Shown: in pieces, positions 3,716 to 57,942 of the stretch
Layout: every line of letters begins with the position of its first letter
How positions within the stretch are numbered: position 1 is the first letter of the stretch
Notes under the pieces: model-generated
Told to the model about the DNA's origin: nothing
Seen by the model: only the letters and a program-made list of their open reading frames with translations
The model's database searches: none
Source of the DNA: Chaetoderma sp. LZ-2023a
Taxonomy: Eukaryota > Mollusca > Caudofoveata > Chaetodermatida > Chaetodermatidae
Assembly: GCA_034401795.1 (NCBI GenBank)
Contig: CM067366.1
Span: 78,173,470 to 78,237,469 of the forward strand
DNA: 64,000 nt
Reading direction: 5' to 3'
Program-made: the position numbers and the translations under genes

Positions 3716-29554
<25,839 letters not shown>

Positions 29555-36205: not shown

Positions 36206-36815
36206 TGGATGAGTGAGTGGGAGGGTGGCATTGATTGAATGGTTGGCACTAGCTTAACTTAGGGCATGTGGGGAGTGGGGAGCCATCATTTACATTATCC
36301 TATTCTGGTGTCATAACAGTAGTAATGTGTTTATATAAAATTTTGAATATTGAATTGAAAATTGGTTCCAATCGCATGACTAAAAATATCCTGTTCCCGT
36401 GTTGGAAAATTGATGGGTTGAAATAAGAATTTGGTTCTGCAACAATAGTGTGCAGGTAACATTGATGTTTTATCTGCATTCCAGATAATATACATCCTTC
36501 AGCAGCAGCCAGCCAGCAGCAGCACTATGACTCTGTTTCTCCTTATTTCATTGCTTTTTATGGCAGGCTAAGAATAACCAGTATAAGTGGCATATTTAGA
36601 CAAGTCCAAGTTCTTGACTCCGCCCTATGCCGATTCTGATATGGCCGGGTGAGAACGGAATCAGAAAACTCAGACTAACATAAATATCCATTTTCAACAA
36701 ATTTGAAATTAAATGGTCTGTGTCAATCATGGAATTAAAAATTTTATTCATTTTAAAGTCTGTTAATTTAAAGATGTTTTAATATGTCAGAAGTGGAATG
36801 CAAACAAACTTAATT

Positions 36816-37680
36816 CAAGAGGGTTAACAGCTCTTGACACACATAAGCCTGAGAATGAGCATGAATATATAAGATGAATGAACATGATATATAAACAGTA
36901 TACAAAAAAAAAAGCCAAACTTGGATTACCTTATGACTTTTTGATTCCAGACAAGACACCGCAACCTGCCACACCATGGCTCATATGACTTTACTGGTTG
37001 GTATCCTCTCGCTGACCATATCTGTCTATCTCTAAATTAGCGCTTTGCTACTAAGAAGAACGATCAGTGTGGTCGATTATCTAGCATTCAAAATTGCTAC
37101 GGTGAGACATCACTGTAAAGGGCAGTCGAGGCGGCTATTCCTCTGATGTCATGAACCCTGGCACCCTGCACCTGGTGACCAGTTGCAATTTCATGGGTGG
37201 TGTTAATACACTAAACTACCCAACGAGATATAGTATCCATGGATGCTGCACCATAAGGCTTTTTATGGCAGATCCACAGACGTCTATCATCTGTCCATAG
37301 AGAGTCTGTTCCATTTCTTGTACTTAGTCAAAGCATGGACCGGACACCAGGCACTGGTATCATGATCATACTGTGTAAGTTTCGGTAAAAAGGTCGGTTT
37401 GCCGGGATATCTCAAAGATTGATTCTTTGACATAAATTCTGCTCTTGGAAGCCGTCGCAGACCTTCTCCAGAGACAATAAATCAGTCCTTCTCTGCTGAA
37501 AGCGTGTGGTTCTCACTGTGTCTTCTGGCTGAGGAAGCTGCCAATAGAAAGACTGCCTTCAGAGTCAGATGCTTTACACTAACCGAACCCATGGGTTCGT
37601 AATGGTGCTTGGTTAGCACATTAAGCACCAAAGATAGACTCCAGGCTGGAATAACTACTGGTTGTCTTGGTCGGAGATTG
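36816..37680 (-). pseudogene. DIRS fragment D, tyrosine recombinase 3' part (left of insertion A)
   Basis: Aligns with 38255-39220 of element A. On the minus strand it carries the recombinase C-terminal region, including VHDIRGIAA, the HxxR motif with its histidine intact, but with stops and frameshifts. It ends at CGGAGATTG where element A begins; the rest resumes at 44791. This is an older relative, visibly more diverged than A, B or C. Confidence 0.8.
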
Positions 37681-37862
37681 CAGGAAATGTCAATTTCCCT
37701 TTCTCCGAGATCTAACAATACTCACCATTCTGTTACTTCTGATATACAGCTGGCCCTGACAGCGGCTCTAGGATTATAGACTTAGAAAGCTTTACCGACT
37801 CCTGGGAACCGGGTACTCGGCTCCCAACTGCCGAGTACCCGTTTACCATAGAGCTCATATTG
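37681..37862. repeat. Element A left (3') inverted terminal repeat
   Basis: From about 37712 it matches the reverse complement of 44637-44775. The outer 30 bases (CAGGAAATGTCAATTTCCC..) are unique to the left end, as DIRS termini differ. It includes a perfect hairpin CGGGTACTCGG / CCGAGTACCCG. Confidence 0.92.
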
Positions 37863-37929
37863 TTTGCATAGCCACCAAACAAGAGAAAACTATGGCTTGC
37901 CTCCGTGGGGCTGGGAGGCTGGGTCCGTA

Positions 37930-38029
37930 ACAGAATGGTGAGTATTGTTAGATCTCGGAGAAAGGGAAATTGACATTTCCTGCATTCTCCTTCGATCAAT
38001 ACTCACCATTCTGTTACTTCTGATATACA
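37930..38029. repeat. Element A internal complementary region (circle-junction copy)
   Basis: Reverse complement of the right end joined to the left end: ...GACATTTCCTGCA meets TTCTCCTTCGATC at 37983/37984. In DIRS elements this region templates completion of the circular DNA intermediate. Confidence 0.93.
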
Positions 38030-38527
38030 CCAGATTTGAGCAGTAACCTGGTGGGAAGGGGCAAGCCATAAATGCTAATTTTGCCCCTTGGAGAAAGATT
38101 TTAGACTTCAAACTTGACTAACGGAGACCTAAAAGGACCGTCAAGTTCACGGAACCGAATCACATTCGCGTCACAGTCCTCCCCCCTTTTTCCTCCTAAG
38201 AAAAGGGAGAGAACTAACGAACATGTATCTCGCCTGAAAACACAAATATGCCAAGAGGGTTAACTGCTCCCTGCATACTCCATGTATTAGCCTGGGAATG
38301 AGCATGAATATATAAGATGAATGAACATGATACATATCCATAATACAAAAAACTCTCACTATTGAATTACCTTATGATAATTGGACTTCAGACGTACCGC
38401 CTCCAACCATTCACCGGTTCGGCCATCAGTGACACAATCTGGTTGACATCCTCTCGCCTGACCATGCCTGCTTTAGGTTCTTTTCTTACCGAAGTGAGAA
38501 AAGGGTGAAAAGCAGTGTGGTCACTAA

Positions 38528-39560
38528 CTATCGTTTCAAAACAGCTAAAGCGAGTGGATTGGCTGAGTCTGACACATCCCTCATATAGTAATCCGTGAAT
38601 GAGGACTCACAGTGCCATTGTGCAACGGCCATGATGTCCTATAACGGAACACCATTGTAAAGGGCGGTCGAGGCGGCTATTCCTCTGACATTGTCTGCCC
38701 TTACGCCTTGCACCTGGTGCCCAGTCGCCATCTCCTGAGTAGTCTGAATGCATTCGACCACCCAACGAGAGATAGTATCCATGGATGCGGCGCCATAAGA
38801 CTTTTTATGGCAGATCCACAGATGTCTATTGTTCGACCGTAACGAGTCAGTCCGTTTCTTGTACTTAGTCAAAGCACGGACCGGGCACCAGACACTGGCA
38901 TCACGATCAAACCTAGTTAACTTCGGTATAATGATCGGTTTGCCGGGATATCTCAAAGATTGGTTCTTTGACATAACCTCTGCTCTTGGCAGAAGACGCA
39001 GACCTTCTCCAGAAACAATAAATCGGTTCCTCTCTGCCGAAAGCGCATGGATCTTACTGCGCCTTCTAGCTGAGGAAGCTGCCAATAGAAAGACCGCCTT
39101 TAGAGTCAAATGCTTTAGACTAGCCGAACGCAACGGTTCGAAAGGGTGCTTGGCCAGTACATTAAGCACTAAAGATAGACTCCAGGCTGGAATGACTACC
39201 GGTTGTCTCGGTCGGAGATTGCTCATTCCCTTCAACATCACATTTAACTGGGCCACCTTTGGACTATCCCTGTTGGCTAGACAAGGGATAACTGATGCCA
39301 AAGCTGACTTGTATCCAGCAACTGTGACGGGAGCTAATCCTCAAAAGAACAGCTCACAGAGAAAGTCTGCTATTTGCTGATAGTGGATTGAAAGGTATCA
39401 ATACCCTTTTCTTCACACCAGTCTGCAAATCTGTTAACCTTGTTGTTATATGACTTGAAGGTTGACCTCCTTCTCGCAGCCGCGATGAAATCAGCAGCCT
39501 GTCGAGAAAAGCCTTCCGACGTGGAACGTTGTTTGATAACATCCACGCAGTCATTGAACA
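38528..39560 (-). pseudogene. Element A tyrosine recombinase, inactivated
   Basis: The N-terminal SAM-like part (FIAAARRRSTFKSYNNKVNR) is followed by a one-base deletion at about 39380, where the sister copy B reads STIQQIADF. The catalytic domain shows box I Arg in LAASSARRRSKIHAL. The HxxR motif reads ADNVRG, so the His is lost; fragment D keeps HDIR. A TAG lies just before DIMAVAQWHCESSFTDYYMRD, which holds the expected nucleophile Tyr. These lesions, all shared with C, make activity very unlikely. Confidence 0.9.
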
Positions 39561-41463
39561 TTTCGGGACACTCGTGTAGGAAGCGTCCCTTGGCCTGGGA
39601 GATTATGTTCGGAATCTCGGGCAACTGCACAGGATTTTCCACCAGCAGATCTAGAAGATCCGTGAACCACGCCCTGCTCGGCCAATACGGCGCTATTAGC
39701 AGGACCAGACACGGTTCCTCCCTGATCTTCACCAAAACCTTCGGTAGAAGAATGGTGGGTGGGTACGCGTAAGCGTGCATCCCTCTCCAGCTTATCGCCA
39801 GAGCGTCTGTATCGACGGCATTTGGATCTGTAATCGGCGAGACATATGTCATGATTTGAGCATTTTCCTTTGTGGCGAACAAGTCCACGTTGGGTTTGCC
39901 CCAATGCTCGAAGATCCGTCGCAGAACTGGAGGGTTGAGGGACCATTCTGTTGGCAGGATTCTCTGTCTGCGAGACAAAGCATCCGCCAGAATGTTCAAT
40001 CGGCCAGGAATACGAGCTGCTTTCAAAACAACTGAGTAATTCCTGCACCATTGAATCAAGTGCCACACCCTGATACACAGAGTGGGCGACCTGGTCCCGC
40101 CTTGGCGATTTATATATGATACTACTGTCGAATCGACCGACCGTATCAATATCACCCTGCCCCTGATCATCGGAAGGAACTCTTCCAACGCCAGTTCCAC
40201 TCCCATCATTTCCAACAGATTGATATGCAGCTGACTCTCCGGGAGAGTCCATGTGCCCGAGACCTGGTTCTCCCAGGCAGGCACCCCACCCTTCCAGCGA
40301 TGCATCCGTGTAGACGGACAGCTGGAGGCGGGGTAGGTGCAGCGAAACCCCTAATAGGAGATTCTGACGCTGTTTCCACCATAGAAGATGCGATATTATC
40401 GGCTCCAAAACTGGCAACAGTTTTGACAGGGGTTCTGTTCTCTGTTTCCACAGAGACATCAGATACAACTGGATAGGCCTTCGCATTAGAGCATCGTACG
40501 GGATAACCTGCTCCATGGAGACCATCATGCCCAGCATCTGAAGGAACCGCCTCGCCTTGAATGTGGTTTCCCACTCGAAAACTCTTGAGGATGGCTAACA
40601 GAGACACCACTCTGGGCTCTGATGGGTAAACCCTGCCCTCCTCGAGGTCGAATCGCATCCCCAAATAAACGAAACGTTGAGTGGGCGTCAACTCGGATTT
40701 CTCCTCGTTGACTATGCAGCGTAGATCTGAAAGTAACTTCAGAGTCAGAGCAGTATCCACGTTCAACCTGGCTGCCGAGTCTGCCTTAAGCAACCAGTCG
40801 TCTATGTAGGTGTGTAGCGCCACGTTCTCTTTTCTGAGAAACGCTGTCACCGCAAGGACCACTCTTGTGAAAACCCTCGGAGCTGTCGACAGGCCAAACG
40901 GGAGACTGTAAACTCCCATACTTGATTTTGAAACGCAAATCTCAGAAACCTGTGCCAACTCCGATTCATAGGAATGTGGAAATATGCATTTTTCAGATCG
41001 ATCGATACACACCACATTCCTTTCCTCAATCCTGCATTACCGACCTCGGCATTTCCATCTGGAACCGAGGCGTATGGCTAAACCAATTTAATGGCCTGAG
41101 ATTGAGTATGGGTCTCCATCCCCCTGTGCTCTTGGGGACAAGGAACATGTTTGAATAGAAGCCTGGAGTGTTTCGATTTGCTGGTTTTATTGCTCCCTTC
41201 AGAAGCAAACCCGACACTTCCTTTTGAACGGCTTCTAACTTGTCTGGCTCCCTTGGTACGGGTGTCCAGACAGGTGCCAAAGACAGATTTTGTGGTGGAA
41301 AGTCCCACCACTCAGGCATGTAACCCTGGGATAACCATCCCAGGACCAGACTGTCTGACGTCACACCTTGCCAGGCCTCGACGAAACGCATGAGCCTTCC
41401 ACCCACCATAGACGCCTCGACGTCTAACGGGGTTGTCCGGCTCGCAGTCCGCCCCCCCCCCAC
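39370..41463 (-). pseudogene. Element A reverse transcriptase / RNase H / downstream domain
   Basis: Reads EVSGLLLKGAIKP, FLVPKSTGGWRPILNLRPLN, SIDLKNAYFHIPM, LPFGLSTAPRVFTRV and the active-site YIDDW (about 40805), then FVYLGMRFD. RNase H follows: YTDASLEGWGACLG, the LEMMGVELAL helix, SVDSTVVSYINRQGG and NILADALSR. After it, DLFATKEN...YAYPP...LIAPYWPSRAWF matches the domain after RNase H in DIRS elements, reported as methyltransferase-related. Frameshifts occur near 40915, near 40570 and near 40290, so no intact polyprotein is present. Confidence 0.9.
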
Positions 41464-41582
41464 TCTTTCTTAACGAGAGAGAGAGAGAACCATTTCGTTC
41501 TAGGCACGACGGGTATAACTGGCACCGCTGTTCCTGTCACACAGGCGCGGTCCAGGCGGATATGAAGGGAGCTTTCGTACCC

Positions 41583-43715
41583 TCAGGTACGCTTCGGCCC
41601 CTTCTGTCCGCCCTTTGAGGCCTTACCCTTACCCTTCCCCTTCCCACCTCTAGGGCGGTCAGGAGCAACATTGGGGAGGGTAGGCGCCTCTACAACCTTC
41701 CTGGGCTTCTTCGCCGGCGGCGGCTCTGAAACCCCAGCTGAAGCAGAAGTCGCAACAGGCCTAGCTTTCGCCTTGCCCTTATGCTTCTTCTGCTCCTTTG
41801 AAGGTTGTCCCGTTAGCGGTTTCCCCACAGGCCCTAGTGCATGCGCTTGTCGCACTAGCTCTAGCTGTAGGTTTACCGCTAACCGATTCTGCGCGATACT
41901 GGCGGTATCCTCTAAGATGGCCCACGCTTGGCCACCGAAGATGCTAGGCCCTGTCAGGGGTGTCCCAAGGAGACGCTCCCTGACTGCCGTAGCCGGACGC
42001 ATATGGTCAATGACCATTTGCCTCCTGGATTTCGTCACACGCGCTTGCACCCTTGCCAATGCGTCCATCGACAGCACCAGGCCGTCATTGACACATGAAA
42101 GCACCACAGGTGGCACAGGGTGGCCTGCCCCGCTTCAGCCCACACCGACTGAAGGAGACGATAAGAGTGGTTGACAGCGCTCATCGCTGCCCTCACACCC
42201 TCATCGCATAGGGACAGGACTTCTTCCTGGTGTACCTGAGACTTGTCCACAAGTGCCGGACCGGGGTGACCCGGCACGGCACTCTGGACGCCCAGTACCC
42301 ATCGGTCATCCTCCGTGACCGACGGGACTACACCATACCTGTCGTATTCCCCCCGCGGAATACGACATCTTGCCCGCACCTCCCTGGAGGCCGCAGGGAG
42401 CTGACCCTTGGTCATCAGTTGTTTGCTATAAATAGCATCCAACCATTCTATGAACCGTGGATCCAGTCCCACTGACTGGATCCGGGCCGCGGGCAAAATC
42501 CCCGTCCTGATCGACGCAACCGACGGACGGGGCGCATCTTCATCGGCCGTGGCCGAAACCACAGACGGGTCAACCCTGGCTAGCCACGCCAGAGCATCTG
42601 ACCAATCTACCTCCAATGAAGACACCCCCGCAAACACGTCACCCGTTGACGTGCTCACGGGTCTGCCAGCCACGGCCTCCCAGCAAGGAGCCACGGCTGA
42701 CACGCCAGGCACTCCGGTACCACACGGTTCCGCCGCCACCCCATGAATCACTCCGGTCCATGGGGTAGGTCCACACGGAAAACCGTACGGACCCGTAGCA
42801 GTCGCGGAACCATAGCCGAACACGGGCGCCCACGGCACCCCACGTCCGACTGCCGGACCAGGCGAGATAGGTGAGTACCACGCCCGGCCCGGCACACCCG
42901 TTCCCGTGACGGCTGGTGCCAAACCAAGCCGCACGGAACCGGTGCACGGTAACGGATTTGCCTCAGCCACAGGCGGAGCCGCTGACCTGGCTTGCGCCAA
43001 ACCAGACAAATGGAGGCCGGTTCCGTCTAGGACGGAATCAACCTCCATATTCTCCACCTGCGGCTTCACGGGCCGCAGAAACCTCTCCTCCTCGGCCTCC
43101 TCGTCTTCAGACTCCGAAGAGTCGTCACTAGACGAGTCAACCGTGGAACCGTCCTGGCGGACGGCTCCCACACCTGACGGACCGGCCACCGCTACTGGAC
43201 CACCCGGAGGTGGCCGCAGAGAAACAGAAACCCGTCTGGCCGAAGCCAGACGGGACTGCCAGGGGGCCGTACGAGACGGCCCCCTCGGTAACCAGTCCAG
43301 AATCCTGTCCGAGGACAGGATCCGTACCAGGCATGGGGAGAAACTGTCCCCCAACCTTTGGTAGCAGGGACGACACCAGCGTGGTCAGAACGCTATGCAG
43401 AAAAACCCTGCAGAGCCGGACCAAACCACGCCGGCGGTGCCATCTCCGCCACCTCCAGCTGGGGACGTGGAGCACCCCAACTGGCCGAACCGGGCGCTCC
43501 ACGATTTACTCTCGGACCGCCTGACCCCGCGTCAGACCCAGCCAAGTCCTTCTGGGAAAGGAACTTAACCATCGTTTCGACGGACCACACTGCACAAACA
43601 TTACACCTATGATCTATATTACACAGGGCACACATAAAACAGACATGGTCCTTGAACATTACACGGACAAACTTATGGCAGTCGTCACATGATGGCGGGG
43701 CTGGCTTGGCCTATA
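41583..43715 (-). pseudogene. Element A gag-like ORF1, frameshifted
   Basis: The N-terminus has a Cys-rich zinc-binding pattern (CDDCHKFV then CFMCALCNIDHRCNVC), just after TTATTTTATAG, which could be a splice acceptor. A central acidic tract (SSSDDSSESEDEEAEEE), a conserved LDAIYSKQLMTKGQLPAA region and a Lys/Gly-rich basic tail (GGKGKGKGKASKGGQKGPKR) follow. Frame changes occur near 43390 and near 42115; the second is shared with C. The role as nucleocapsid protein is inferred from position and composition. Confidence 0.7.
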
Positions 43716-44217
43716 AAATAAGCACAAACCTACAATAAACAAGCGGAACGAGACCCGGATGGAAGGCAGACAATTAATTTTCAAATAATTTGACTCATAA
43801 ATTAACCGTAACCTCCCCGCACCCCACCCCGCCACGTTACAACAACGATCGCATTGATTATGACGACAAGTACGCGGCGGGCACAACACACCCATAATAG
43901 ATCCTCCAGGATGTGTAACGGCTCCAGGAATCATATCGCATAGCATTCAGGGTATATTTACTAATCAATATAAATTATACTCCTAACGAACGCAGCACGA
44001 TATGTGAAGAAAACAACAAAATGTATAACAAAACTGCTGTCTCACACGGTAAAACCGCAGACCACACATCTACTCAAGAATTTTGAAACCACCGATCATT
44101 GCAAACCGATCGTGATCACACGTAAACTTGATCATTCTAAAGTTTCCGGTACCATTTTTAGTACGCAGCACCCAGAATAAGATGCGCGAATTAATGAAAA
44201 ATTTTTCTTCACATAAA

Positions 44218-44273
44218 CATCCGAGCGACCGGGTGTGACGTCACCCGCTCGGATTCTACGGAGAACGACGTCA
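44218..44273. promoter_or_regulatory. CRE-like palindrome in the element A 5' untranslated region
   Basis: TCCGAGCG and CGCTCGGA flank GGGTGTGACGTCACCC, giving a perfect TGACGTCA (44236-44243), the ATF/CREB consensus. A second GACGTCA follows at 44267. The same sites occur in C (60059-60066), while B has lost the core. Position upstream of gag suggests a promoter element; function not shown. Confidence 0.45.
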
Positions 44274-44636
44274 GCCGATATTCGTGTTAGAAATACCGTA
44301 GCAAACACCTATTTTCATATCTGCCGATCGCCTGTTGGGGTTTAAAGAAGGCGATCGTCTGGCATATATCGTTGTTAGCACACGTCCCAGATTCTATGGG
44401 GACAGAAATTGGAACATGCGACACAACGAAATTTAGAGACCTAAGTCTTTTAACTATGGATAATAAAGAACAATACAACCTGGTTGTCTTGGGCGGTATT
44501 CTCCATAGTCCTTAGTTAATCCTTTCAGAACACACAAACTATCACTGATTAAAGACTTAGATTATTTTAAAACACTAAAATCCTTAATGCAAAAAGCATG
44601 TATTGCTCTTGTCGCTATGCAAACAAGAATGAGCTC

Positions 44637-44790
44637 TATGGTAAACGGGTACTCGGCAGTTGGGAGCCGAGTACCCGGTTCCCAGGAGTCGGTAAAGCTT
44701 TCTAAGTCTATAATCCTAGAGCCGCTGTCAGCGTCAGGGCCAGCTGTATATCAGAAGTAACAGAATGGTGAGTATTGATCGAAGGAGAAT
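44637..44790. repeat. Element A right (5') inverted terminal repeat
   Basis: Complement of the left repeat, ending GTGAGTATTGATCGAAGGAG A at 44789. The last 14 bases differ from the left terminus and are the part copied into the internal complementary region. Confidence 0.92.
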
Positions 44791-45010
44791 GCTCATTCCC
44801 TTCACCAACACATTTAACTGGGCCACCTCTGGACTATCCCTGTACGCTAGACAAGGGACAAGTGATGCCAAAGCTGACTTGTATCCAGCAATAGTGACAG
44901 GAGCTAATCCTGTAAAGAATAGCTTACAGAGCAGATCTGCTATTTGCTGAATAGTGGATTGAAAGGGATTGAGATCCTTTTTTCTACACCATTCTGCAAA
45001 TTTGTTAACC
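44791..45010 (-). pseudogene. DIRS fragment D continued (right of insertion A)
   Basis: Resumes at CTCATTCCCTTCACCAACAC exactly where 37680 stopped and runs through recombinase N-terminal sequence (TTTGCTGAATAGTGGATTG, undeleted, unlike A and C). It is cut off at GTTAACC by the next repeat. Confidence 0.85.
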
Positions 45011-46432
45011 CCACACTTTTCAAAGAAAAGATGGGGATTATGTGATGCGACCCATGTGTGTGGCGGCCATCTGTGCACTTATCGATTGTAACGCATCTCC
45101 TTCTAGACCATTTCAGATAGAAACTTGAAACTTTGGAAATGATTGCTCATATGAACAGGGATGTGTATAACACATTTGGAATTTTGGCATGACCCCCAGG
45201 GGCACAGCCCTGGGGTGGGGAATGTGGGGTCAGGTCAAAAATTAAATTTGTCCAAATGTTGTCATGTTACATATCAATTTCAAGCCAATGATTAGTAGTC
45301 TACAGTACAAGGAATTATTTTGATCTTGGGTCAAACTGAGGGTAGGGGTCGGGGTCAAAAGTGGGTACCAATCGATTATAATGCAACTCCTCCTAGACCA
45401 TTTCAGATAGAAACTAGAAACTTTGGGGATAATTGCACATATGGCCAGCGATGTGCATGATACTTTTGAAATTTTAGTATGACCTCAGGGGTACGGCCCT
45501 GGGGGTGGGAAATGTGGGGTAAAAAAATACAATTTTTCCAAAGGTTGTTATGTTGCATATCATTTTCAATCCAATGATGAGTAGACTACAGCAAGGAATT
45601 ATTTTGATCTTGGGTCAAACTGAGGGTAGGGGGCGGGGTCAAAAGTGGGCACCAATCGATTGTAACGCAACTCCTCCTAGACCATTTCACATAGAAACTT
45701 GAAGCTTTGGGTATGATTACACATACGGCCAGGGATGTGCATGGCACTTTTGACATTTTGTTCCGACCCCCAGGGGTGGGGGCTCAGGGGCTTTGGACCG
45801 TGGGTCAAAAATTAAATTTATCCACAGGTTGTCATGTCACATATCATTTCGAAGCCCATGAGTAGTAGACTACAGTACAAGAAATTATTTTGATCGTGGG
45901 CCATACTGAGTGTAGGGGCAGGTCAAAAGGGGGCAACAATCCATTGTATCGCAACTCTTCGCACACCATTTCAGATAGACATTTGAAACTTTTGGGATAA
46001 TTACACCAATGGGCAAGGATGTGCATGACACATTGGAATTTTGATGTCACCCCCAGGGGTAGGGGTGGGAGAAATGGTGGGCAAAAAATAGATATTATCA
46101 AATGTAGTCATGTCACATATCATTTTAAAGCTTGTAGTTAGTAGACTACAGTACAACAAATTATTTTGTTCTTGAGTCAATCTGAGGGCAGTGGCCAGGG
46201 GTCAAATGGGCAAATTGGGCATCAGAAAATTGTAGTGGAACTACACACACACCATCTCAGATAGAAACTTCAAATGGGGATCATTGCATTTTATTTTGAA
46301 ACCACTTACCCATTGAAACTACATTTCAACGAATTTATTGTGTTTTGGATCAAAGTGAGGGTAAAGCTCGAAGTTGTGAATGCATGAGGATTTGCGATGG
46401 CATGCCATCGACTGCGCATTCTAGTTAATTTT
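45011..46432. mobile_element. Tandem-core repeat, five units of about 285 bp, 3' hairpin and CTAG end
   Basis: The word ACCATTTCAGATAGAAACTT recurs at about 45107, 45402, 45686, 45967 and 46252. Units also share GACCCCCAGGGG, GTCATGT.ACATATCATTT and TTATTTTGATCTTGGGTCAA. The right end folds (GCGATGGCATGCCATCG, inside GAATGC / GCATTC) and is followed by CTAG then T, as in Helitron 3' ends. No coding region; class inferred. Confidence 0.6.
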
Positions 46433-46509
46433 TTTTCAGATGAAGAACACGGGAACACTAACGTAATAAAGTTGATGAAGACAATTAACAAGTGGCGCCG
46501 TAACCATTT

Positions 46510-46742
46510 AATGACTAAATTTGTTTAAAAGATTTAAGTATGTGCTCATTGAATGGCCATTTGCAGGCTAACAGAAAATATTTTTGACAATTTACCATTG
46601 GAATGACTGGCTCGGTTATCGAGCCAGTAATTCCAATGGTAAAATTTTCAAAAATAGTCTTATCTTGGCTTGCAAATGGACATTCCTCAAGAACACTACA
46701 GAGGGAGGCTTTTTCGGGCTTCATCTTCAAAGGGTTAAAAAG
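46510..46742. repeat. Family 1 MITE, well preserved
   Basis: TTTAATGACTAAATTTGTTT start, core TTGGAATGACTGGCTCGGTT and complement, arms GGCCATTTGCAGGCTAACAG / GGCTTGCAAATGGACATTCC, end TCTTCAAAGGGTTAA. Confidence 0.85.
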
Positions 46743-47793
46743 AATTTGACAAACCAACCTAATCAACTGAAAGACAGAAATGAAAAATTGGTATATTCTA
46801 TACTAAACAAACTCGTTTTATTGATTTATGTGCGTGATTTGCGTGCTATAATTTCTCGCTGTTAGATATCGTTTTAAAAAACTATAAGATCTTAAATGGT
46901 AGATTACTAATCCGTCCCTCCATTCATCCATCCACTCATGGATCCATCTGTCCATCTGTTCATCTCATCTCCGACAGAGCTTCCTAAATTGCAGCTATAA
47001 ATGGTAAGCTACAAATTACGACACTTTCGTCCACTCATCCGACTGACAATTCTTTCATCCGTACGTCTCATTTCCGACATAGCTGTCTACGTAGCAGCTA
47101 TATATTTATGGTGGCTTACTTGTTTTAAAGTCTTTTAGGACAGTTGTTGCAGTGCATAATTGACTAACAACATTCAGCTTCATTGTTTTCAAAATGTATG
47201 AATAATCATGTCTGAGCTAATAATATGTCTAATCAAATTGAAGACTTGCATGAATTTTACTATAAATAATTTGAATAACCTCTATCGCCGTCTTCAGTTG
47301 AAAAAGCAATTGATTAATCAGTGGCTTTGATCAGTGCGTGAGCATGTGTGCCGACACGCGCGCATCTGTGTGCACATGATAATTACTCAACGGTCCATAC
47401 ACAATAATTGTAGGCCTACTCTGATCTTGATAAAAATGCAATGTTTGATGGATGGATGGATGGGCAGATGGATGGAAACTGATGTACGGGATGCATAGAA
47501 CGAACACGAGTCATTAATTAGAAATTGTTATGGAAATAAAAGAAACGAGATCAGAGTGTATCAAATGAATGAGTAAACGTGATGGAGGGATGGATGCAGA
47601 CACCTGTACAGCCCCAATGAGCACAGCACACAACATCAACTCAGTGCATGCAACAACAACTCAGCGCAACAGCCACACAGCGCAAAAGCAACTCAATAGA
47701 CTTGACTGTAAATATATAGCAATTGTAAATTATTCATGTAAATATGTATGATGTATGATTACTGTATTCTGCGGCTGTAGTAGTAGAAACATG
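46743..47793. other. Intergenic, no gene recognised
   Basis: Contains CATCCATCCA/GGATGGAT-type simple repeats (46918-46950, 47447-47475) and nothing coding that I recognise. Confidence 0.5.
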
Positions 47794-48830
47794 CTACAGA
47801 TGCAATCCATCCTTCTTCGCTTTTGCCCACTGTGTCTTGTCCTCAGCCGAAATCCTTAGCTTCCTCAGGTCCATTCTTGACTTGAGTGTACCGAGTCCTG
47901 CTTTCTTGAGATCACCTTGTAGCATGCTTAGCAGATTTATGCAATGACGTCCTCTCCTGGCTTTGTATTTGCTGGCTCCAAGTAGGGCAAATTCTAAGGC
48001 TCTCTGTGCTGATGTCTCTTCTGGCATCCTTAGCACACGACCAAACATGGACCATCTTTGCTGGGCGACTTTTACAGACAGCGGCGACATATTACACATC
48101 TTGTATAGAGCATCGTTGGAAATTATGCTGTCTGGCCATCGGTGTCCAGTGATGGTGCGTAGGTGTTTGCGGTGGCAGGCATCGAGTTTGTCTAGAGATG
48201 CCTTTGGAGCTGCCCAGCTATTACAGTTATACAGCATCAAGGATATGCAGGTTGCATTGAATAAATGTAGCCTCTTTATCTGGGGCATCTGATCTACGAA
48301 TCCATAGCTTCCAGAAGGACTGGAAAGCTATGTTCCCCATGATGGTGCGTGCAGAAATATCAGCAGTACTGCAAAGCAGTGAGTCCAGGATTTTACTTTT
48401 CCTTCATGGTTCGCCGCCACGAAGTGGGTCATCATCTTCTATAGTTTCATGCTTTGTCAATAGGTTTATGTGGGTGAACTCTGTTTTGGATTCATTCATA
48501 AAGAGATTCTCAATTTTTAGTTTGCTTGCAGCTATTGGAAGAAGTTCGTCAAGGGGTTTCTTTTCATCGTCTATGAAGTCCACATCGTTGGCATATTCCA
48601 TCTCTAGCGGCATGCCCAGTATTGACACTGGGGGGGGGGTTTGGTCTTGTGGAACTTTCCTGCACAGATTTCAATGCTGCGGCAGTAAGGTAGCAGGTGA
48701 AAAGCACCGGAGATAGACCATCTCCCTGTGGGGAGCCGATTGATGTCTCAAACTCTACAGCCTTCACTGACTTGACTCGTACTCTCAGCTTGGTGTCTGC
48801 AAGCAGTAGTCTCACTAGTCAAAAGAAATT
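47794..48830 (-). pseudogene. LINE reverse transcriptase, C-terminal half, broken
   Basis: Three frames must be joined: SIGSPQGDGLSPVLFTCYL; then LEMEYANDVDFIDDE, where the polymerase YADD reads YAND, so a catalytic Asp is lost; then AFQSFWKLW, LMLYNCNSWA, LDKLDACHRKHLRTITGHRW and RWSMFGRVLRM. This is the thumb and C-terminal region of a non-LTR retrotransposon polymerase. A G-run at 48631-48639 marks one frameshift. The 5' part is absent. It is not a host gene. Confidence 0.85.
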
Positions 48831-48967
48831 TTTTAAAGCTATCCGACACTGCCAATTGCTTATAGTGAAGCCATCGCGAACGAAGTGAGCGTATATAGAT
48901 AACATGTATGTACGTGTAATGAGGAAAAATCAACAGAAAATGAGACAGGGAACCAGGCTAAAATACA

Positions 48968-50065
48968 TACCGTAATTTCTCGACTAAAGGCCGCCCTCGA
49001 ATATAGGACGCTGTCCCAAATTTGACCAAAATCCGCCCAAAAAACTCTTATAATCAAGTATAAGACGCTGTTAAATTTAGAAAAAATGTACCCTTAAAAA
49101 ATCGAAAATTGGTATCAAAAATAACCATCACTCAGCGCTTTGTTCAATGCATGATTAAAATTATCATGGTGGAAGAGAAATCATTAAATAGGACCGCCTA
49201 AATATCGTGTATCTTCAATAAAGATTGTTTATTACATCAAAATCAATCTAATTTTGGCATAAAATGTCTCCTTGAAAACATACAAATCGCGTGATAGAAA
49301 CAGATTGTTATGGCTCTTTTGCATTTGGAGGTGCTGTGTGATCTTATGCGCTAACAGGAGTTGGTTATCTGGCTCTTTTGTGATTGGAGGCGCTGTGTAA
49401 TCTTAAGCATTAACGGGAGTTGGTTCTAAAACGGGTATGGGAATATTCAGATGGTCACTAGTTGTAATGACTCTTTTGCGTTTGGAGGCGCTGTGTGATC
49501 TTATGCGCTAACGGGAGTTGGTTATCTGGCTCTTTTGTGATTGGAGGCGCTGTGTAATCTTATGCGCTAACGGGAGTTGGTTATCAAACGGGTACGGGAA
49601 CATTCAGTTCCTATTGCGCAATGATAATATATAGCAACTTCCGAGTCCAGAATATTTAGATCCGAGTACTCGCTCTAATTAGAATAAAGATCTTTTGCGA
49701 TTTGAGGCGAATCACGTGATTTATACACGTATCTTTTCTCGACGCCATTTTATGTCAAATTCTGGATTAATTTTGATGTAATAAGTGATATGTATTAAAG
49801 AATAAGCAATATTTAGGCGCCCCAATTTAATAATTTTACTTCCGCTTGGTGTTTTTTTAGTATACATTAAACATAGTCGTCAGGCGGCGCGAATTGTCCA
49901 GGGTAACATTTAGTTCAATTTCCGTGGTATAATCTGTGAATCTTTAAGAAAAATTTCGACCCAAAAATGTGCGTAAGGAATGTTCTCGATTATAGGACAC
50001 ACACCCCTTTCTAGAAGATGTATTTTGACAAAAAAACTGCGTCCTTTAGTCAAATTTTTACGGTA
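48968..50065. mobile_element. Non-autonomous element with terminal inverted repeats (TACCGTAA)
   Basis: Left end TACCGTAATTTCTCGACTAA and right end complement TACCGTAAAAATTTGACTAA give imperfect inverted repeats of about 28 bp. TATAAGACGCTGTT/GACGCTGTCC words recur inside the ends. TA at each border may be target or terminus. No transposase frame; superfamily not assigned. Confidence 0.65.
49314..49608. repeat. Higher-order tandem repeat inside the TIR element
   Basis: Units of about 60 bp start CTCTTTTG and contain TTGGAGGCGCTGTGT and GCTAACGGGAGTTGGTT. They alternate as a/b types, and the a-b pair is repeated with a period of 157 bp. Confidence 0.85.
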
Positions 50066-50082
50066 TACCATGCGACTGAGAA

Positions 50083-50275
50083 TGAAGGAAATTTCAATTT
50101 CCCTTTCTCGGAGATCTAACAAAACTCACCATTCTATTACTTCTGATATACAGCTGGCCCTGACAGCTGGCTTTAGGACTATAGACTTAGAAAGCTTTAC
50201 CGACTCCTTGGAACCGGGTACTCGGCTCCCAACTGCCGAGTACCCGTCTACCATGAAGCTCATATTGTTTGCATA
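50083..50275. repeat. Element B left inverted terminal repeat
   Basis: Complement of 62455-62600, with the same CGGGTACTCGG hairpin. Confidence 0.9.
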
Positions 50276-50334
50276 GCCACCAAACAAGAGAAATTCATGG
50301 CATGCCTCCGTGGGGCTGGGAGGCTGGGTCCGTA

Positions 50335-50434
50335 ATAGAATGGTGAGTATTGATAGATCTCGGAGAAAGGGAAATTGAAATTTCCTTCATTCTCCTTCGA
50401 TCAATACTCACCATTCTATTACTTCTGATATACA
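50335..50434. repeat. Element B internal complementary region
   Basis: GAAATTTCCTTCA meets TTCTCCTTCGATC near 50389. It matches B's own left end (TGAAGG), not that of A or C (TGCAGG). Confidence 0.92.
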
Positions 50435-50906
50435 CCAGATTTGGTCAGTAACCTGGTGGGAAGGGGCAAGCCATAACTGCTACTTTTGCCCCTTGGAGAA
50501 AGAGTTAGACTTAAACTTGACTAATGGAGACCTAAAAGGACCATCAAGTTAACGGAACCGAATCACATTCGCATCTTGCCCCCCCCCACCACCTTTTTTC
50601 TCCTAAGAAAAGGGAGAGAACTAACGAACATGCATCTCGCCTGAAAACACAAATATGCCAAGAGGGTTAACTGCTCTTTGCATATATTAGCCTGGGAATG
50701 AGCATGAATATATAGACATAATACAAAACACTCTCAATCCTGAATTACCTCATGATATTTGGATTTCAGACCTGGAGCCTGCAACCATTCACTTGTCCGG
50801 CCATCAGTGACATAATCTGGTTGATATCCTCTCGCTCAACCATGTCTGCTTCTTAATTCTTCCTTACAAATGCCAAAAAATGAAGAAGAGCAGTGTGGTC
50901 ATATAC

Positions 50907-52030
50907 CTATCGTCTCAAAACAGCTAAAGCGAGTGGAATGGCGAAGTCTGACACATCCCTCATATAGTAATCCGTGAAAGAGGACTCACAGTGCCATTGT
51001 GCAACAGCCATGATGTCCTTAAACGGAACACCATTGTAAAAGGGCGGAAGAGGCGGCTATTCTTCTAACATCGTGCCCTTGCGCATTGCGCTTGGTGCCC
51101 AGTCGTAATCTCACGGGTAGTCTGAATGCATTCGACTACCCAACAAGAGATAGAATCCATGGATGCGGCGCCATATGGCTCCTTATGGCAGATCCACAGT
51201 TGTCTATCACTCGACCGTAATGAGTCTGTCCGTTTTGTACTTAGTCAAAGCACGGACTGGGCACCAGACACTGGCATCACGATCAAACCTACTTAGTTTC
51301 GGTATAACGATCGGTTTGCCGGGATATCTCAAAGATTGAATCTTTGACATAAACTCTGCTCTTGGCAGTAGATGCAGACCCTCTCTGGAGACAATAAATC
51401 GGTCCCTCTCTGCTGAAAGTGCATGGATCACACTGCACCTTCTAGCTGAGGAACCTGCCAATAGAAAGACTGCCTTTAGAGTCAAATGCTTTAGACTAGC
51501 CGAACGCAACAGTTCGAAAGGGTGCTTGGCAGTACATTAAGCACTAAAGATAGACTCCAGGCTGGAATGACCACCGGTTGTCTCGGTCGGAGATTGCTCA
51601 TTCCCTTCACCATCACACTCAACTGGGCCACCTCTGGACTATCCCTGTTGGCTAGACAATGGATAACTGATGCCAAAGCTGACTTGTATCCAGCAATTGT
51701 GACAGGAGCTAGTCCTGAAAAGAACAGCTCACAGAGAAAGTCTGCTATTTGCTGAATAGTGGATTGAAAGGTATCAATACCCTTTTCTTCACACCAGTCT
51801 GCAAATCTGTTAACCTTGTTGTTATATGACTTGAAGGTTGACCTCCCTCTCGCAGCTGCGATGAAATCTGCAGCATGTCGAGAAAAGCCCTCCGATTTGG
51901 AACGTTGTTTGACAACAACCACGCAGTCAATAACATTTCGGGACGCTCGTGTAGGAAGCGTCCCTTGGCCTGGGAGATTATGTTCGGAATCTCGGGTAAC
52001 TGCACTGGATTTTCCACCCGCAGACCTCGT
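50907..52030 (-). pseudogene. Element B tyrosine recombinase, frameshifted
   Basis: Retains STIQQIADFLCELFFSGLA, which A and C have lost, and GVPFKDIMAVAQWH with no stop before the Tyr region. It has a frameshift after LSLVLNVL (about 51530) and a two-base loss in the HxxR box near 51070: the sequence CGATGTTAGAAGAATAGCC is what remains of an expected HDVRRIA. Confidence 0.85.
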
Positions 52031-52051
52031 AGATCCGTGAACCAAATGGCG

Positions 52052-53620
52052 CTATAGCAGGACCAGGCACGGTTCCTCCCTGATCTTCACCAATATCTTC
52101 GGTAGAAGAATGGTGGGTGGGTACGCGTAAGCGTGCATCCCTCTCAAGCTTAACACCAGAGCGTCTGTATCGATGGCATTAGGATCTGTAATCGGCGAGA
52201 CATAAGTCATGATTTGAGTATTTTCCCTTGTGGCGAACAAGTCCACGTTGGGTTTGCCCCAATGCTCGAAGATCCTGTGAAGAACTGGAGGGTTGAGAGA
52301 CCATTCTGTTGGCAGAATTCTCTGTCTGCAAGACAAAGCATCCGCCAGAATGTTCAATCGCCCAGGAATATTAGCTGCTTTAAAAACAACCGAGTAATTC
52401 CTGCACCATTGAATCAAGTGCCACACTTAAATACATAGTGTGGGTGACTTGGTCTCGCCTTGGCGATTTCTGTATGATACTACTGTCGAGTTGTCCGACC
52501 GTATCAATATCGCCTTGCCCCTGACTTTTGGAAGAAACCTTTTCCAATGCCAGTTCCACTACCATCATATCTAACAGATTGATATGCAGCTGGCTCTCTT
52601 GGAGAGTCGATGTGCCCGAGACCTGGTGTTCTCCCAGGTAGGGCCCCCATCCCCCCAGCGATGCATCCGTGTACACGGACAGCTGGGGGTGGGGTAGGTG
52701 CAGCGAAAACTCCTACTAGGAGATTCTGACGCTTTTTCCCACAATACAAGATGCGACATTATTGGCTCCAAAACTGGCACCAGTTTTGACAGGGGTTCTA
52801 TTCTCTGTTTCCACAGAGACATCAGATACAACTGGATATGTCTTCGCATCCGAGCAGTGTACGGGTATACCTGCTACATGGAGACCATCATGCCCAGCAT
52901 CTGAAGAAACCGCCTCACCTAAATGTGGTTTCCCAATCGAAAACTCTTGAGGATGGCTAACAGAGACACCACTCTTGGCTCTGACGGGTAAAAAACCCTG
53001 CCCTCCTCGAGATCGAATCGCATCCTTAAATAAACGAAATGTTGAGTGGTGTGTCAACTCAGATTTCTCCTTGTTGACTATCTAGCCTAGATCTGAAAGC
53101 AACTTCAGAGTCAGAGCAGTATCCACCTCTAACCTGGCTGATGATCAGCCAATCGTCTATGTAGGTGTGAAGCGCCACGTTCTCTTTTGTGAGAAACGCT
53201 GTCACCACAAGGACCACTCTGGTGAAAACCCCTTGGAGCTGTCGACAGGCCGAATGGGAGGATTTAAACTCCCATACTAGATTCTGAAATGCAACTCTCA
53301 GAAACCTGTGACAACTCCCGTTCATAGGAATGTGGGAACATGCATCTCTCAGATCGATGGATACACACCACACACCCTTCCTCAATCCTGCCATTACCGA
53401 CCTCGGAGTTTCCATCTGAAACCGAGGCGTATGGATAAACCAATTCAATGGCCTGAGACTGAGTACGGGTCTCCATCCCCCTGTGCTCTTGGGGACAAGG
53501 AACATGTTTGAATAGAAGCCTGGAGTGTTCCGGTTTGCTGGTTTATTGCTCCCTTCAGAAGCAAACCTGACACTTCGTTTTTAATAGCTTCTAACTTGTC
53601 TGGTCCCATTGAACGGGTGA
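52052..53620 (-). pseudogene. Element B reverse transcriptase / RNase H, frameshifted
   Basis: FLVPKSTGGWRPVLSLRPLN, SIDLRDACSHIPM, YIDDWLI, YTDASLGGWGPYLG, GRLNILADALS and NVDLFATRENTQIMTYVSPI are all recognisable but spread over several frames; small deletions near 52035 and 53120 remove parts. Confidence 0.85.
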
Positions 53621-53779
53621 CCAGACAGGTGCCAAAGACAGATTCTGTGGTGGAAAGTCCCACCACTCTGGCATGTACCCCTGGGATAACCATCCCAGGA
53701 CCAGACTGTCTGACGTCACACCTCTCCAAACCTCGACGAAAACGCATGAGCGTTCCACCCACTATAGACGCCTCAACGC

Positions 53780-54497
53780 CTAATGGGGGTGTCTGGCTCG
53801 CGTATATCTGCTTCCCCCCCCTCTCTTGACGAGAGAGAGAGAACCATATTGGTCTTGGCTTGGCCGGTCTAACGGGCACCGCTGTTCCTGTCGCACAGGT
53901 GCAGTCCAGGCAGATGCGAAGGGAGCCCTCGTACCCTCGGGTACGATCCGCTCCCTTCTGTCCGCCATTTGAGGACTTACCTCTCCCCTTCCCGCCTCTC
54001 GGGCGATCAGGAGAAATATTGGGGAGGGTAGAGGCCCCCACAACCTTCTTGGCTTTCATCCTCGGTGACCGACGGGACAACACCATCCTGTCGTATTTCC
54101 CCCCGTGGAATACGACCCCTCGCCCGCACCTCCATGGAGGCCGCAAGAAGCTGGCCCTTGTTCATGCGTTGTTTGCTATAAATAGCATCAAGCAACACCA
54201 TAAACCATGGATTCAGTCCAACAGACTGGATCAGGGCTGCGGGCAAGATCCCCGTCCTAATCGATGCACCGATGGACGGGGTAGATCCTCCTCGGCCGTG
54301 GTCGAAACCACAGACGGGTCCACCCTGGCAAGCCAAGCCAGAGCCTCAGACCAATCTGTCTCCGAGGAGGACACTCCCGTGAACACGTCACCCATTGACA
54401 TGTTCACGGCTCTACCAGCAACGGCCTCCCGGCTAGGAGCCATTGCTGATATGTCAGGAACTCCGGTACTGTACGGTTCCGCCGCCACCCCATAGAA
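53780..54497 (-). pseudogene. Element B gag, C-terminal part
   Basis: LDAIYSKQRMNKGQLLAAS and the basic tail GGKGRGKSSNGGQKG identify it; truncated at the right by insertion C. Confidence 0.7.
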
Positions 54498-54690
54498 TGC
54501 AGGAAATGTCAATTTCCCTTTCTCCGAGATCTAACAATACTCACCATTCTGTTACTTCTGATATACAGCTGGCTCTGACAGCGGCTCTAGGACTATAGAC
54601 TTAGAAAGCTTTACCGACTCCTGGGAACCGGGTACTCGGCTCCCAACTGCCGAGTACCCGTTTACCATAGAGCTCATATTGTTTGCATAG
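54498..54690. repeat. Element C left inverted terminal repeat
   Basis: Practically identical to 37679-37870 of A; complement of 60455-60600. Confidence 0.92.
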
Positions 54691-54749
54691 CCACCAAACA
54701 AGAGAAAACTATGGCTTGCCTCCGTGGGGCTGGGAGGCTGGGTCCGTAA

Positions 54750-54847
54750 CAGAATGGTGAGTATTGTTAGATCTCGGAGAAAGGGAAATTGACATTTCCT
54801 GCATTCTCCTTCGATCAATACTCACCATTCTGTTACTTCTGATATAC
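54750..54847. repeat. Element C internal complementary region
   Basis: CCTGCA meets TTCTCC at 54803/54804, copying C's own circle junction. Confidence 0.92.
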
Positions 54848-55348
54848 ACCAGATTTGATCAGTAACCTGGTGGGAAGGGGCAAGCCATACATGCTAATTT
54901 TGCCCCTTGGAGAAAGATTTTAGACTTCAAACTTGACTAACGGAGACCTAAAAAGGACCGTCAAGTTTACGGAACCGAATCACATTCGCGTCACAGCTCC
55001 CCCCCCTTTTTCCTCCTAAGAAAAGGGAGAGAACTAACGAACATGTATCTCGCCTGAAAACACCAATATGCCAAGAGGGTTAACTACTCCCTGCATATCG
55101 CTTGTATTAGCCTGGGAATGAGCATGAATATATACGATGAATGAACATGATACATATACATAATACAAAAAACTCTCACTTGTTGAATTACCTTATGATA
55201 ACAGGACTTCAGACGTACCGCCTACAACCATTCACCGGTTCGGCCATCAGTGACACAATCTGGTTGACATCCTCTCGCCTGACCATGCCTGCTTTAGGTT
55301 CTTTTCTTACCGAAGTGAGAAAAGGGGAAAAGCAGTGTGGTCACTAAC

Positions 55349-56380
55349 TATCGTTTCAAAACAGCTAAAGCGAGTGGATTGGCTGAGTCTGACACATCCC
55401 TCATATAGTAATCCGTGAATGAGGACTCACAGTGCCATTGTGCAACGGCCATGATGTCCTATAACGGAACACCATTGTAAAGGGCGGTCGAGGCGGCTAT
55501 TCCTCTGACATTGTCTGCCCTTACGCCTTGCACCTGGTGCCCAGTCGCCATCTCGTGAGTAGTCTGAATGCATTCGACCACCCAACGAGAGATAGTATCC
55601 ATGGATGCGGCGCCATAAGACTTTTTATGGCAGATCCACAGATGTCTATCGTTCGACCGTAACGAGTCAGTCCGTTTCTTGTACTTAGTCAAAGCACGGA
55701 CCGGGCACCAGACACTGGCATCACGATCAAACCTAGTTAACTTCGGTATAATGATCGGTTTGCCGGGATATCTCAAAGATTGGTTCTTTGACATAACCTC
55801 TGCTCTTGGCAGAAGACGCAGACCTTCTCCAGAAACAATAAATCGGTTCCTCTCTGCCGAAAGCGCATGGATCTCACTGCGCCTTTTAGCTGAGGAAGCT
55901 GCCAATAGAAAAACCGCCTTTAGAGTCAAATGCTTTAGACTAGCCGAACGCAACGGTTCGAAAGGGTGCTTGGCCAGTACATTAAGCACTAAAGATAGAC
56001 TCCAGGCTGGAATGACTACCGGTTGTCTCGGTCGGAGATTGCTCATTCCCTCAACATCACATTTAACTGGGCCACCTCTGGACTATCCCTGTTGGCTAGA
56101 CAAGGGATAAATGATGCCAAAGCTGACTTGTATCCAGCAACTGTGACGGGAGCTAGTCCTCAAAAGAACAGCTCACAGAGAAAGTCTGCTATTTGCTGAT
56201 AGTGGATTGAAAGGTATCAATACCCTTTTCTTCACACCAGTCTGCAAATCTGTTAACCTTGTTGTTATATGACTTGAAGGTTGACCTACTTCTCGCAGCC
56301 GCGATGAAATCAGCAGCCTGTCGAGAAAAGCCTTCCGACGTGGAACGTTGTTTGATAACATCCACGCAGTCATTGAACAT
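55349..56380 (-). pseudogene. Element C tyrosine recombinase, inactivated as in A
   Basis: Same one-base deletion at TTTGCTGATAGTGGATTG (about 56200), same ADNVRG in place of HxxR, same TAG after GVPL (about 55460). It has one additional base lost near 56050 (ATTCCCTCAACATCAC against A's ATTCCCTTCAACATCAC). Confidence 0.9.
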
Positions 56381-57356
56381 CTCGGGACGCTCGTGTAGGA
56401 AGCGTCCCTTGGCCTGGGAGATTATGTTCGGAATCTCGGGCAACTGCACAGGATTTTCCACCAGCAGATCTAGAAGATCCGTGAACCACGCCCTGCTCGG
56501 CCAATACGGCGCTATTAGCAGGACCAGACACGGTTCCTCCCTGACCTTCACCAAAACCTTCGGTAGAAGAATGGTGGGTGGGTACGCGTAAGCGTGCATC
56601 CCTCTCCAGCTTATCGCCAGAGCGTCTGTATCGACGGCATTTGGATCTGTAATCGGCGAGACATATGTCATGATTTGAGCATTTTCCTTTGTGGCGAACA
56701 AGTCCACGTTGGGTTTGCCCCAATGCTCGAAGATCCGTCGCAGAACTGGAGGGTTGAGGGACCATTCTGTTGGCAGGATTCTCTGTCTGCGAGACAAAGC
56801 ATCCGCCAGAATGTTCAATCGGCCAGGAATACGAGCTGCTTTCAAAACAACCGAGTAATTCCTGCACCATTGAATCAAGTGCCACACCCTGATACACAGA
56901 GTGGGCGACCTGGTCCCGCCTTGGCGATTTATATATGATACTACTGTCGAATTGACCGACCGTATCAATATCACCTTGCCCCTGATCATCGGAAGGAACT
57001 CTTCCAACGCCAGTTCCACTGCCATCATTTCCAACAGATTGATATGCAGCTGACTCTCCGGGAGAGTCCATGTGCCCGAGACCTGGTTCTCCCAGGCAGG
57101 CACCCCACCCTTCCAGCGATGCATCCGTGTAAACGGACAGCTGGGGTTGGGGTAGGTGCAGCGAAACCCCTATTAGGAGATTCTGACGCTGTTTCCACCA
57201 TAGCAGATGCGATATTATCGGCTCCAAAACTGGCACCAGTTTTGACAGGGGTTCTGTTCTCTGTTTCCACAGAGACATCAGATACAACTGGATAGGTCTT
57301 CGCATTAGAGCATCGTACGGGATAACCTGCTCCATGGAGACCATTATGCCCAGCAT
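56189..57356 (-). pseudogene. Element C RNase H and downstream domain
   Basis: YTDASLEGWGACLG in one frame and LEMMAVELALEEF, NRQGGTRSP, NILADALSR, NVDLFATKEN and LIAPYWPSRAWF in another. The frameshift in LGEPGLG is shared with A. Confidence 0.88.
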
Positions 57357-57389
57357 CTGAAGGAACCGCCTCGCCTTGAATGTGGTTTC

Positions 57390-57942
57390 CCACTCGAAAA
57401 CTCTTGAGGATGGCTAACAGAGACACCACTCTGGGCTCTGATGGGTAAACCCTGCCCTCCTCAAGGTCGAATCGCATCCCCAAATAAACGAAACGTTGAG
57501 TAGGCGCCTCTACAACCTTCCTGGGCTTCTTCGCCGGCGGCGGCTCTGAAATCCCAGCTGAAGCAGAAGTCGCAACAGGCCTAGCTTTCGCCTTGCCCTT
57601 ATGCTTCTTCTGCTCCTTTGAAGGTTGTCCCGTTAGCGGTTTCCCCACAGGCCCTAGTGCATGCGCTTGTCGCACTAGCTCTAGCTCTAGCTGTAGGTTT
57701 ACCGCTAACCGATTCTGCGCGATACTGGCGGTATCCTCTAAGATGGCCCACGCTTGGCCACCGAAGATGCTAGGCCCTGTCAGGGGTGTCCCAAGGAGAC
57801 GCTCCCTGACTGCCGTAGCCGGACGCATATGGTCAATGACCATTTGCCTCCTGGATTTCGTCACACGCGCTTGCACCCTTGCCAATGCGTCCATCGACAG
57901 CACCAGGCCGTCATTGACACATGAAAGCGCCACAGGTGGCAC
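57390..57942 (-). pseudogene. Element C gag-RT fusion across the 999-bp deletion
   Basis: One open frame runs from gag (CVNDGLVLSMDALARVQARV) through KKPRKVVEAPT directly into RT (QRFVYLGMRFDLEEG). The deletion is a multiple of three, so the fusion stays open until the older frameshift near 57390. Confidence 0.88.

Follow-up and report, generated by a model that had tools for sequence, protein, structure and literature searches.

A non-autonomous lineage of DIRS1-like retrotransposons in Chaetoderma, very probably multiplied in trans by intact sisters

Introduction

How can a retrotransposon whose recombinase is broken come to stand, almost unchanged, at two different places? The question is raised by a stretch of 64,000 nucleotides (the window) on contig CM067366.1 of the Chaetoderma sp. 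LZ-2023a assembly (GCA_034401795.1), in which two closely similar DIRS copies, A and C, have the same damage in the gene for their tyrosine recombinase (YR). An earlier note on this DNA had called that recombinase triple-dead and had argued that A and C must have been mobilised by the recombinase of another element. Here we compare the four DIRS copies of the window with their relatives across the genome, and we consider it very probable that A and C are products of a non-autonomous DIRS1-like lineage, in which the RNA of a dead master would be copied and integrated by the proteins of intact sisters.

Results

Four DIRS1-like copies in two nests

Self-comparison of the window yields four DIRS-like copies, every one on the minus strand (Table 1). 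A is inserted in the old copy D and C in B: once joined, the flanks of A align without a gap over 292 nt to DIRS YR sequence that has no insertion, and the flanks of C align over 299 nt, with 2 gaps, to DIRS sequence likewise free of an insertion. Identity is 98.3-98.9% between A and C (two long matches), 83-89% between A and B, and ~84% between D and A over their longest stretch. C is without ~1 kb of A (A positions 40687-41680), and the junction of this deletion occurs at one place genome-wide. Neither the nesting nor the deletion appeared in the earlier note.

The copies match the description of DIRS1-like elements (DIRS-1 of Dictyostelium) in the part of PMC3266345 that we draw on. They have inverted terminal repeats with a right extension, an internal complementary region in which the circle junction unites the complements of the two ends, insertion without target-site duplication (at 21 insertions, below), and nesting in their own kind; A, B and C each hold the joined sequence of their own ends in that region, B with a few mismatches. 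The genes are likewise those of the same source, with gag, an overlapping pol (RT, RNase H, a weak Dam match) and YR. In contrast to the elements described there, the window copies are unable to encode these proteins, and their 3-bp target core may differ from the circle junction.

Table 1. Features of the DIRS copies in the window (positions in the window).
Feature	Positions	Strand	Remark
Element A, full-length DIRS1-like copy	37679..44789	-	dead lineage, 7111 bp
Element C	54498..60606	-	dead lineage as A, 6109 bp, nested in B
Element B, right part	50083..54497	-	host of C
Element B, left part	60607..62616	-	continues beyond C
Old copy D, 3' part of YR gene and downstream	36760..37678	-	host of A; outer limit approximate
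Old copy D, YR gene upstream of the A insertion	44790..45010	-	outer limit approximate
A, left inverted terminal repeat	44611..44789	-	includes left terminus
A, right inverted terminal repeat	37679..37875	-	includes right extension
A, internal complementary region	37927..38028	-	with circle-junction sequence
A, longest surviving gag-region frame	42035..43354	-	439 aa; inherited frameshifts interrupt gag
A, ORF in reverse transcriptase region of broken pol	40206..41015	-	piece of frame matches RVT_1, 1.5e-10
A, ORF from RNase H / methyltransferase region into YR N-terminal domain	39370..40305	-	ends at the 1-base gap
A, 1-base gap in SAM-like N-terminal domain of YR	39380..39381	-	common to A and C; base present in B and D
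A, TGA stop in YR	39341..39343	-	common to A and C
A, HxxR box reading D-N-V-R	38684..38695	-	likewise in C; H-D-V-R in B, H-D-I-R in D
A, TAG stop ahead of catalytic tyrosine region	38639..38641	-	likewise in C; sense codon in B; deleted in D
C, junction of private ~1 kb deletion	57500..57506	.	gag end to RT

The recombinase damage shared by A and C

Alignment of A, B, C and D, from which the lesions were called, reveals four shared ones in the catalytic and SAM-like part of the YR of A and C (Table 1), to which comparison with the open sister described below adds a 2-base gap farther upstream in the YR frame, shared by 22 dead-type rows. Three of the four had been described before, and the alignment agrees: the one-base deletion in the N-terminal domain, the change at the HxxR box (given as 'ADN instead of HDx', which is right in substance), and the TAG before the tyrosine region. 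The fragment D keeps its histidine, also as described. The epithet triple-dead is accurate for these lesions but falls short of the damage, which extends to the TGA, the upstream gap and a broken gag and pol; the statement that B reads open at the other two places holds locally, B's YR being broken by other inherited indels. The TGA at 39343-39341 had been overlooked.

The gap and the TGA map inside the stretch of the sister that Phage_int_SAM_1 matches (below cut-off), and the sister's H-D-V-R (residues 927-930) lies inside the stretch matched by the integrase profile phrog_1. What we take to be the HxxR box and the catalytic tyrosine of these YRs are named by motif. With E up to 1, neither Pfam nor PDB has a match to the YR piece of A, and a single-sequence AlphaFold model of A's 233-aa frame was poor (mean pLDDT 43) and was left unused.

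The lesions are inherited and widespread

A search of the 2.44-Gb genome (2753 contigs) with A's YR region gave 1240 candidates; 40 scored matches, A included, were all at 100% (rounded), and 20 of the other 39 were taken, best first. All four lesions are present in 20/20 of these further copies, a result that is partly one of selection by similarity to A, as the query itself contains the lesions. Both ends were found in 19 of them (6.9-7.2 kb; pairwise difference 0.07-2.4%), the left end of L013 being missing and that copy being excluded from full-length and junction counts.

The unselected evidence for inheritance is the allele count and a linkage sample. The gap+TGA allele occurs at 1330 places (pattern count, up to 2 mismatches), D-N-V-R at 1379 (up to 1 mismatch) and TAG at 1003 (exact), and the open alleles at the same three sites at 7232, 6944 and 5104 places, figures that are not strictly comparable, since the number of mismatches allowed was not the same throughout and B-type copies can be among the 7232; reversed-pattern controls gave 0. 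The 1330 are allele places rather than counted full-length copies, the dead-type copies read beyond A and C numbering 20 only. Among 26 gap+TGA copies (exact matches in the first 60 Mb of contig C1), 16 carry both D-N-V-R and TAG, 2 carry D-N-V-R with the TAG site unmatched, 4 carry TAG with the HxxR site unmatched, 3 have an intact histidine (one with the open state matched at the TAG site), and 1 is matched at neither site. The loss of coding capacity is common by descent to many copies, as befits a non-autonomous lineage. Assembly error in the frameshift and stop, which had been named as a possible refutation, fails to account for the same lesions in 20/20 separately placed, similarity-chosen copies and for an allele at 1330 places.

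Separate insertions of A, C and their relatives

When the 400-bp flanks of A, C and the 20 others were compared (L013 at its right end), no two of the 22 copies had the same sequence, in register, on both sides. In three pairs the flanks are similar out of register, each member having landed in DIRS sequence. A and L021 interrupt different DIRS YR genes and have their right-hand target point in common. A and C lie at different points of two host elements, so the earlier claim of separate insertions with different flanks is borne out; the lesions, common to A, C and 20/20 further copies at different sites, predate both insertions, as had been proposed.

Of 6105 positions, 65 distinguish A from C; A has the minority state at 18 and C at 47, 12 of these being shared with L025. 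Since none of the 18 minority states of A is found in C, and 12 of those of C recur in L025, neither of the two is the parent of the other. Concerted variants, found in both terminal repeats of one copy, occur in C (two substitutions, which L025 has in its left repeat only), L018 and L012; they are the minority, with 7 repeat substitution cells in one repeat only against 3 in both, in a table without four rows (L014 right, L017 right, L028 both). The repeat core of A and C has no left-right substitution, where ~3 would be expected if all divergence were post-insertion (P 0.04), which makes a weak dating argument. A private base in both terminal repeats of A was considered and rejected, since the base is the one that prevails in the family.

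An open sister with the same ends, and broken gag and pol

For potential partners we turned to the places on C1 where the HxxR pattern is intact and took the copies at the first ten listed. A single frame is open from before the gap site past the tyrosine in 5/10, and in 3 of those 5 it is open already from the start of the 3-kb locus. Two of the 3 were analysed whole: L052 has an open YR and a broken gag, and L051, which is 96.7% identical to A and has the same ends, has all frames open (758, 738 and 981 aa). L051 has gag, pol with RT and RNase H (RVT_1 8.5e-23, RT_RNaseH 2.6e-5) and an overlapping YR in another frame, all of which are broken in A and C; its gag frame has no Pfam match, and the Dam match that would point to a methyltransferase domain in pol is weak, below the Pfam cut-off. 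That the third frame is a tyrosine recombinase is indicated by the phrog_1 integrase match (3.6e-8, residues 667-949, PHROGs); Phage_int_SAM_1 matches at 7.1e-4, below cut-off, Pfam gives no match to a catalytic domain, the YR piece has no PDB match up to E 10, and NCBIfam gives weak XerC/XerD matches only. The intact sister with identical termini and HxxR that had been proposed as a check was found, and L051 is, by its reading frames, a coding-competent candidate partner in the same genome.

Measured against this sister, the 21 dead-type rows have near-fixed (at least 19 of 21 rows) frame-breaking indels, 3 in gag and 6 in pol/YR, one of the gag indels being present also in the open-YR copy L052. 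As gag, pol and YR are all broken, the dead lineage needs help in trans for every protein. The claim of mobilisation by another element's recombinase is a strong inference, worded too firmly with 'must' and too narrowly, as help is needed for all proteins.

When the lesion sites are masked, the tree sets A, C and the 20 copies apart by a branch of low support (0.50), and this group adjoins L053 and then the open copies; the tree leaves out L047 and L050 (the same places as L051 and L052) and D1. Codon-position changes on the A/C branch number 8, 5 and 15, of which 8 sites are without D to polarise them, a hint (p 0.06) that part of this branch may have been under selection.

A second dead lineage

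From 39 other B-like matches 12 were taken, likewise for their similarity to B, and together with B all of them have the same gaps when compared with A and C (13/13). Compared with the open sister, at least 12 of the 13 B-type copies share an extra base and four gaps in pol/YR, two of 1 base and two of 2 bases, together with an in-frame 3-base gap. The genome has 844 places with the B-type allele of the HxxR site, and codon-position changes on the B branch number 9, 11 and 12, as without constraint. To judge from these indels, B is a member of a second YR-dead lineage and unfit as a functional reference.

Mosaic copies

L021 and L026 combine a diverged gag region, with a frame of 705-709 aa, with a dead-type YR. 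L053-L055 have the gap and TGA with open states at the HxxR and TAG sites, and L056 has the TAG alone of the dead-type lesions. All four combinations are present in some pairs of the 11 marker columns, and because L053-L056 thereby break the four-gamete rule, recombination is needed; stepwise decay, with gap+TGA copies of intact histidine as intermediates, was set aside for the same reason. Going by the markers, the dead lineage is reticulate, L053-L056 holding only patches of dead-type states. Such mosaics would be explicable by template switching between co-packaged RNAs and equally by gene conversion; we infer the former.

Integration sites

Junctions were read at 21 insertions, 19 copies plus A and C. 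The left 3 bp are TTC in all 21, and although the first left-end pattern required TTC, a search without this requirement agrees in 19/19. On the right, T stands in the middle (+2) in 21/21, with T, A or G first and C, T or A last, so that TTC occurs in 6/21 only. The published DIRS integration model, in the part of PMC3266345 used here, has a 3-bp target identical to the circle junction; the insertions do not follow this rule, the T at +2 alone being invariant on the right. The exchange looks like one at a point 5' of the core, for which only the central T would be needed.

Insertion was precisely inside another DIRS copy in 4/19 (counted as precisely spanned empty sites; a looser count, DIRS in a flank, gives 8/20), as against 1/40 among random 400-bp samples, where a match of any kind to the DIRS copies of the window was counted (p 0.03). 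Including A and C the count is 6/21 (p 0.005), with the proviso that A and C drew attention by being in the window.

Discussion

The lesions of A and C are inherited, their sites differ, their ends are those of a sister with open frames, they lack a target duplication, and mosaics with open-type copies occur. From the shared inherited lesions in YR, gag and pol, set against a sister with the same ends, it follows that the master had died before either A or C was inserted; the two copies are best explained by replication in trans. A master copy would have lost gag, pol and YR function through inherited frameshifts, stops and loss of the HxxR histidine; its inverted terminal repeats, its internal complementary region and the circle-junction sequence would have survived. 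Proteins of intact sisters with the same ends would then have reverse transcribed, circularised and integrated the RNA of this master, and the dead allele may in this way have reached ~1300 places. The route from RNA to circle is presumed by analogy with the published DIRS model. The proposal of a non-autonomous DIRS lineage thus stands, with inherited lesions in 20/20 further copies and an open sister with the same ends.

Among the alternatives, gene conversion after insertion (or homogenisation in assembly) could have carried the lesions into copies that had been intact at the time of insertion. The patchwork of dead-type and open-type states in L053-L056, L021 and L026 testifies that exchange occurs. 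However, 20 near relatives have all four lesions and near-identity over ~7 kb (L021 and L026 excepted in gag), lesions lie in gag and pol too, and conversion would need to have reached more than a thousand scattered places and passed over thousands that have open alleles, so that we regard it as very unlikely. Still less probable is a recombinase that is alive, whether frameshifting, stop readthrough or splicing yields a working protein and the aspartate replaces the histidine. A 233-aa frame over most of the catalytic domain is indeed open in A and 19/19 full-length relatives, but it is only 207 aa in C and an open frame is expected by default in such young copies; a frameshift, two readthroughs and a changed catalytic residue would have to be overcome, gag and pol rescued besides, and open alleles are kept at thousands of places. 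Multiplication of one dead copy at the DNA level, by segmental duplication or extrachromosomal circles, would account for copies that are mostly full length and very similar, but it is largely refuted, and so is the shared-flank duplication that the earlier note had offered as a refutation, by the lack of both-flank sharing in register in 22 copies, by precise ends with a T-centred target core and no target duplication, and by the variants in both terminal repeats of C, L018 and L012.

Non-autonomous retrotransposon lineages are already known, and in a limited literature search, by title or passage, we found no description of a DIRS1-like one. For Dasheng/RIRE2 and SNRE, non-autonomous LTR partners, the consulted part of PMC3701649 suggests amplification by the enzymes of the autonomous partner; those are LTR elements, whereas the lineage of A and C consists of a full-length pseudogenised DIRS copy, 96.7% identical to its open sister. 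SIRE, like A and C a non-autonomous relative of a YR retrotransposon, is in the pertinent part of PMC6681497 a short, truncated derivative of VIPER whose mobility is left open there; the copies read here are full length and recently multiplied.

The probable replication in trans by intact sisters suggests that the DIRS1-like class, little studied, is open to parasitism by its own dead relatives. With a dead family, an open sister and apparent recombinants, this genome offers a natural system for asking whether DIRS proteins act in trans, and the precise junctions make the target rule of a YR retrotransposon readable from natural insertions. Annotation by similarity would count the gene-broken copies as DIRS elements. 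A wider reading, for and against which we see about equal weight, is that DIRS elements here have little or no cis preference; that at least two lineages (A-type at ~1300 and B-type at ~800 places) lost YR by different inherited lesions, the A-type having lost gag and pol as well and trading segments with the open lineage; and that integration is a one-point exchange for which the central T of the 3-bp core is enough, with a preference for DIRS targets. As to the last, DIRS-1 is said, going by the title of a 1984 paper of Cappello, to have a preference for DIRS-1.

Insertion junctions

Junctions were compared in 21 dead-lineage copies, namely A, C and those genome copies chosen by similarity to A (L009-L028, with L013 left out). 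The left 3 bp read TTC at all 21 junctions; the central T of the right 3 bp is likewise invariant, yet the whole triplet is TTC in only 6 of the 21. Judged from these junction sequences, the exchange looks asymmetric, unlike the identical-core model, and single-strand exchange might fit such an arrangement.

A and one of these copies, L021, have an identical right-hand target point. It lies in the tyrosine recombinase (YR) gene of the host element, a different DIRS copy in each case, and the host sequence at this point is similar to the element's own circle junction. The left flank of L021 is non-DIRS.

Lineages and mixed copies

Dead-type segments, of the lineage of A and C with its inherited YR lesions, are combined with open-type segments in L021 and L026 (gag region) and in L053-L056. 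Of the differences between C and L018, 16 are bunched within one 300-column stretch (alignment columns 6600-6900, 3' part), perhaps reflecting exchange with another lineage. A short direct match marks the site where C has lost ~1 kb reaching from the end of gag into RT; this deletion junction occurs once in the genome.

The B-type copies (B and L029-L040) form a second DIRS lineage with its own YR frameshifts, common to at least 12 of the 13 copies read, and one B-type lesion allele is found at 844 places in the genome. Because the small contigs C110 and C1580 each carry two B-type copies at equal spacing, they may be duplicate assembly pieces.

Other repeats in the window

The short repeats tabulated below perhaps constitute a MITE-like family.

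Features of the window by position
Feature	Position	Strand	Remarks
Target point of A	37678/44790		
Deletion junction in C	57500-57506		
B-type copy B	50083-62616		
Tandem array	45072-46212		units ~290 bp, 63-88% alike to reference unit; just past older DIRS copy D
Short repeats	4028-4207, 12689-12907, 16272-16688, 20486-20726, 30353-30583, 32293-33331, 46501-46703	both	mutual matches ~75-91%
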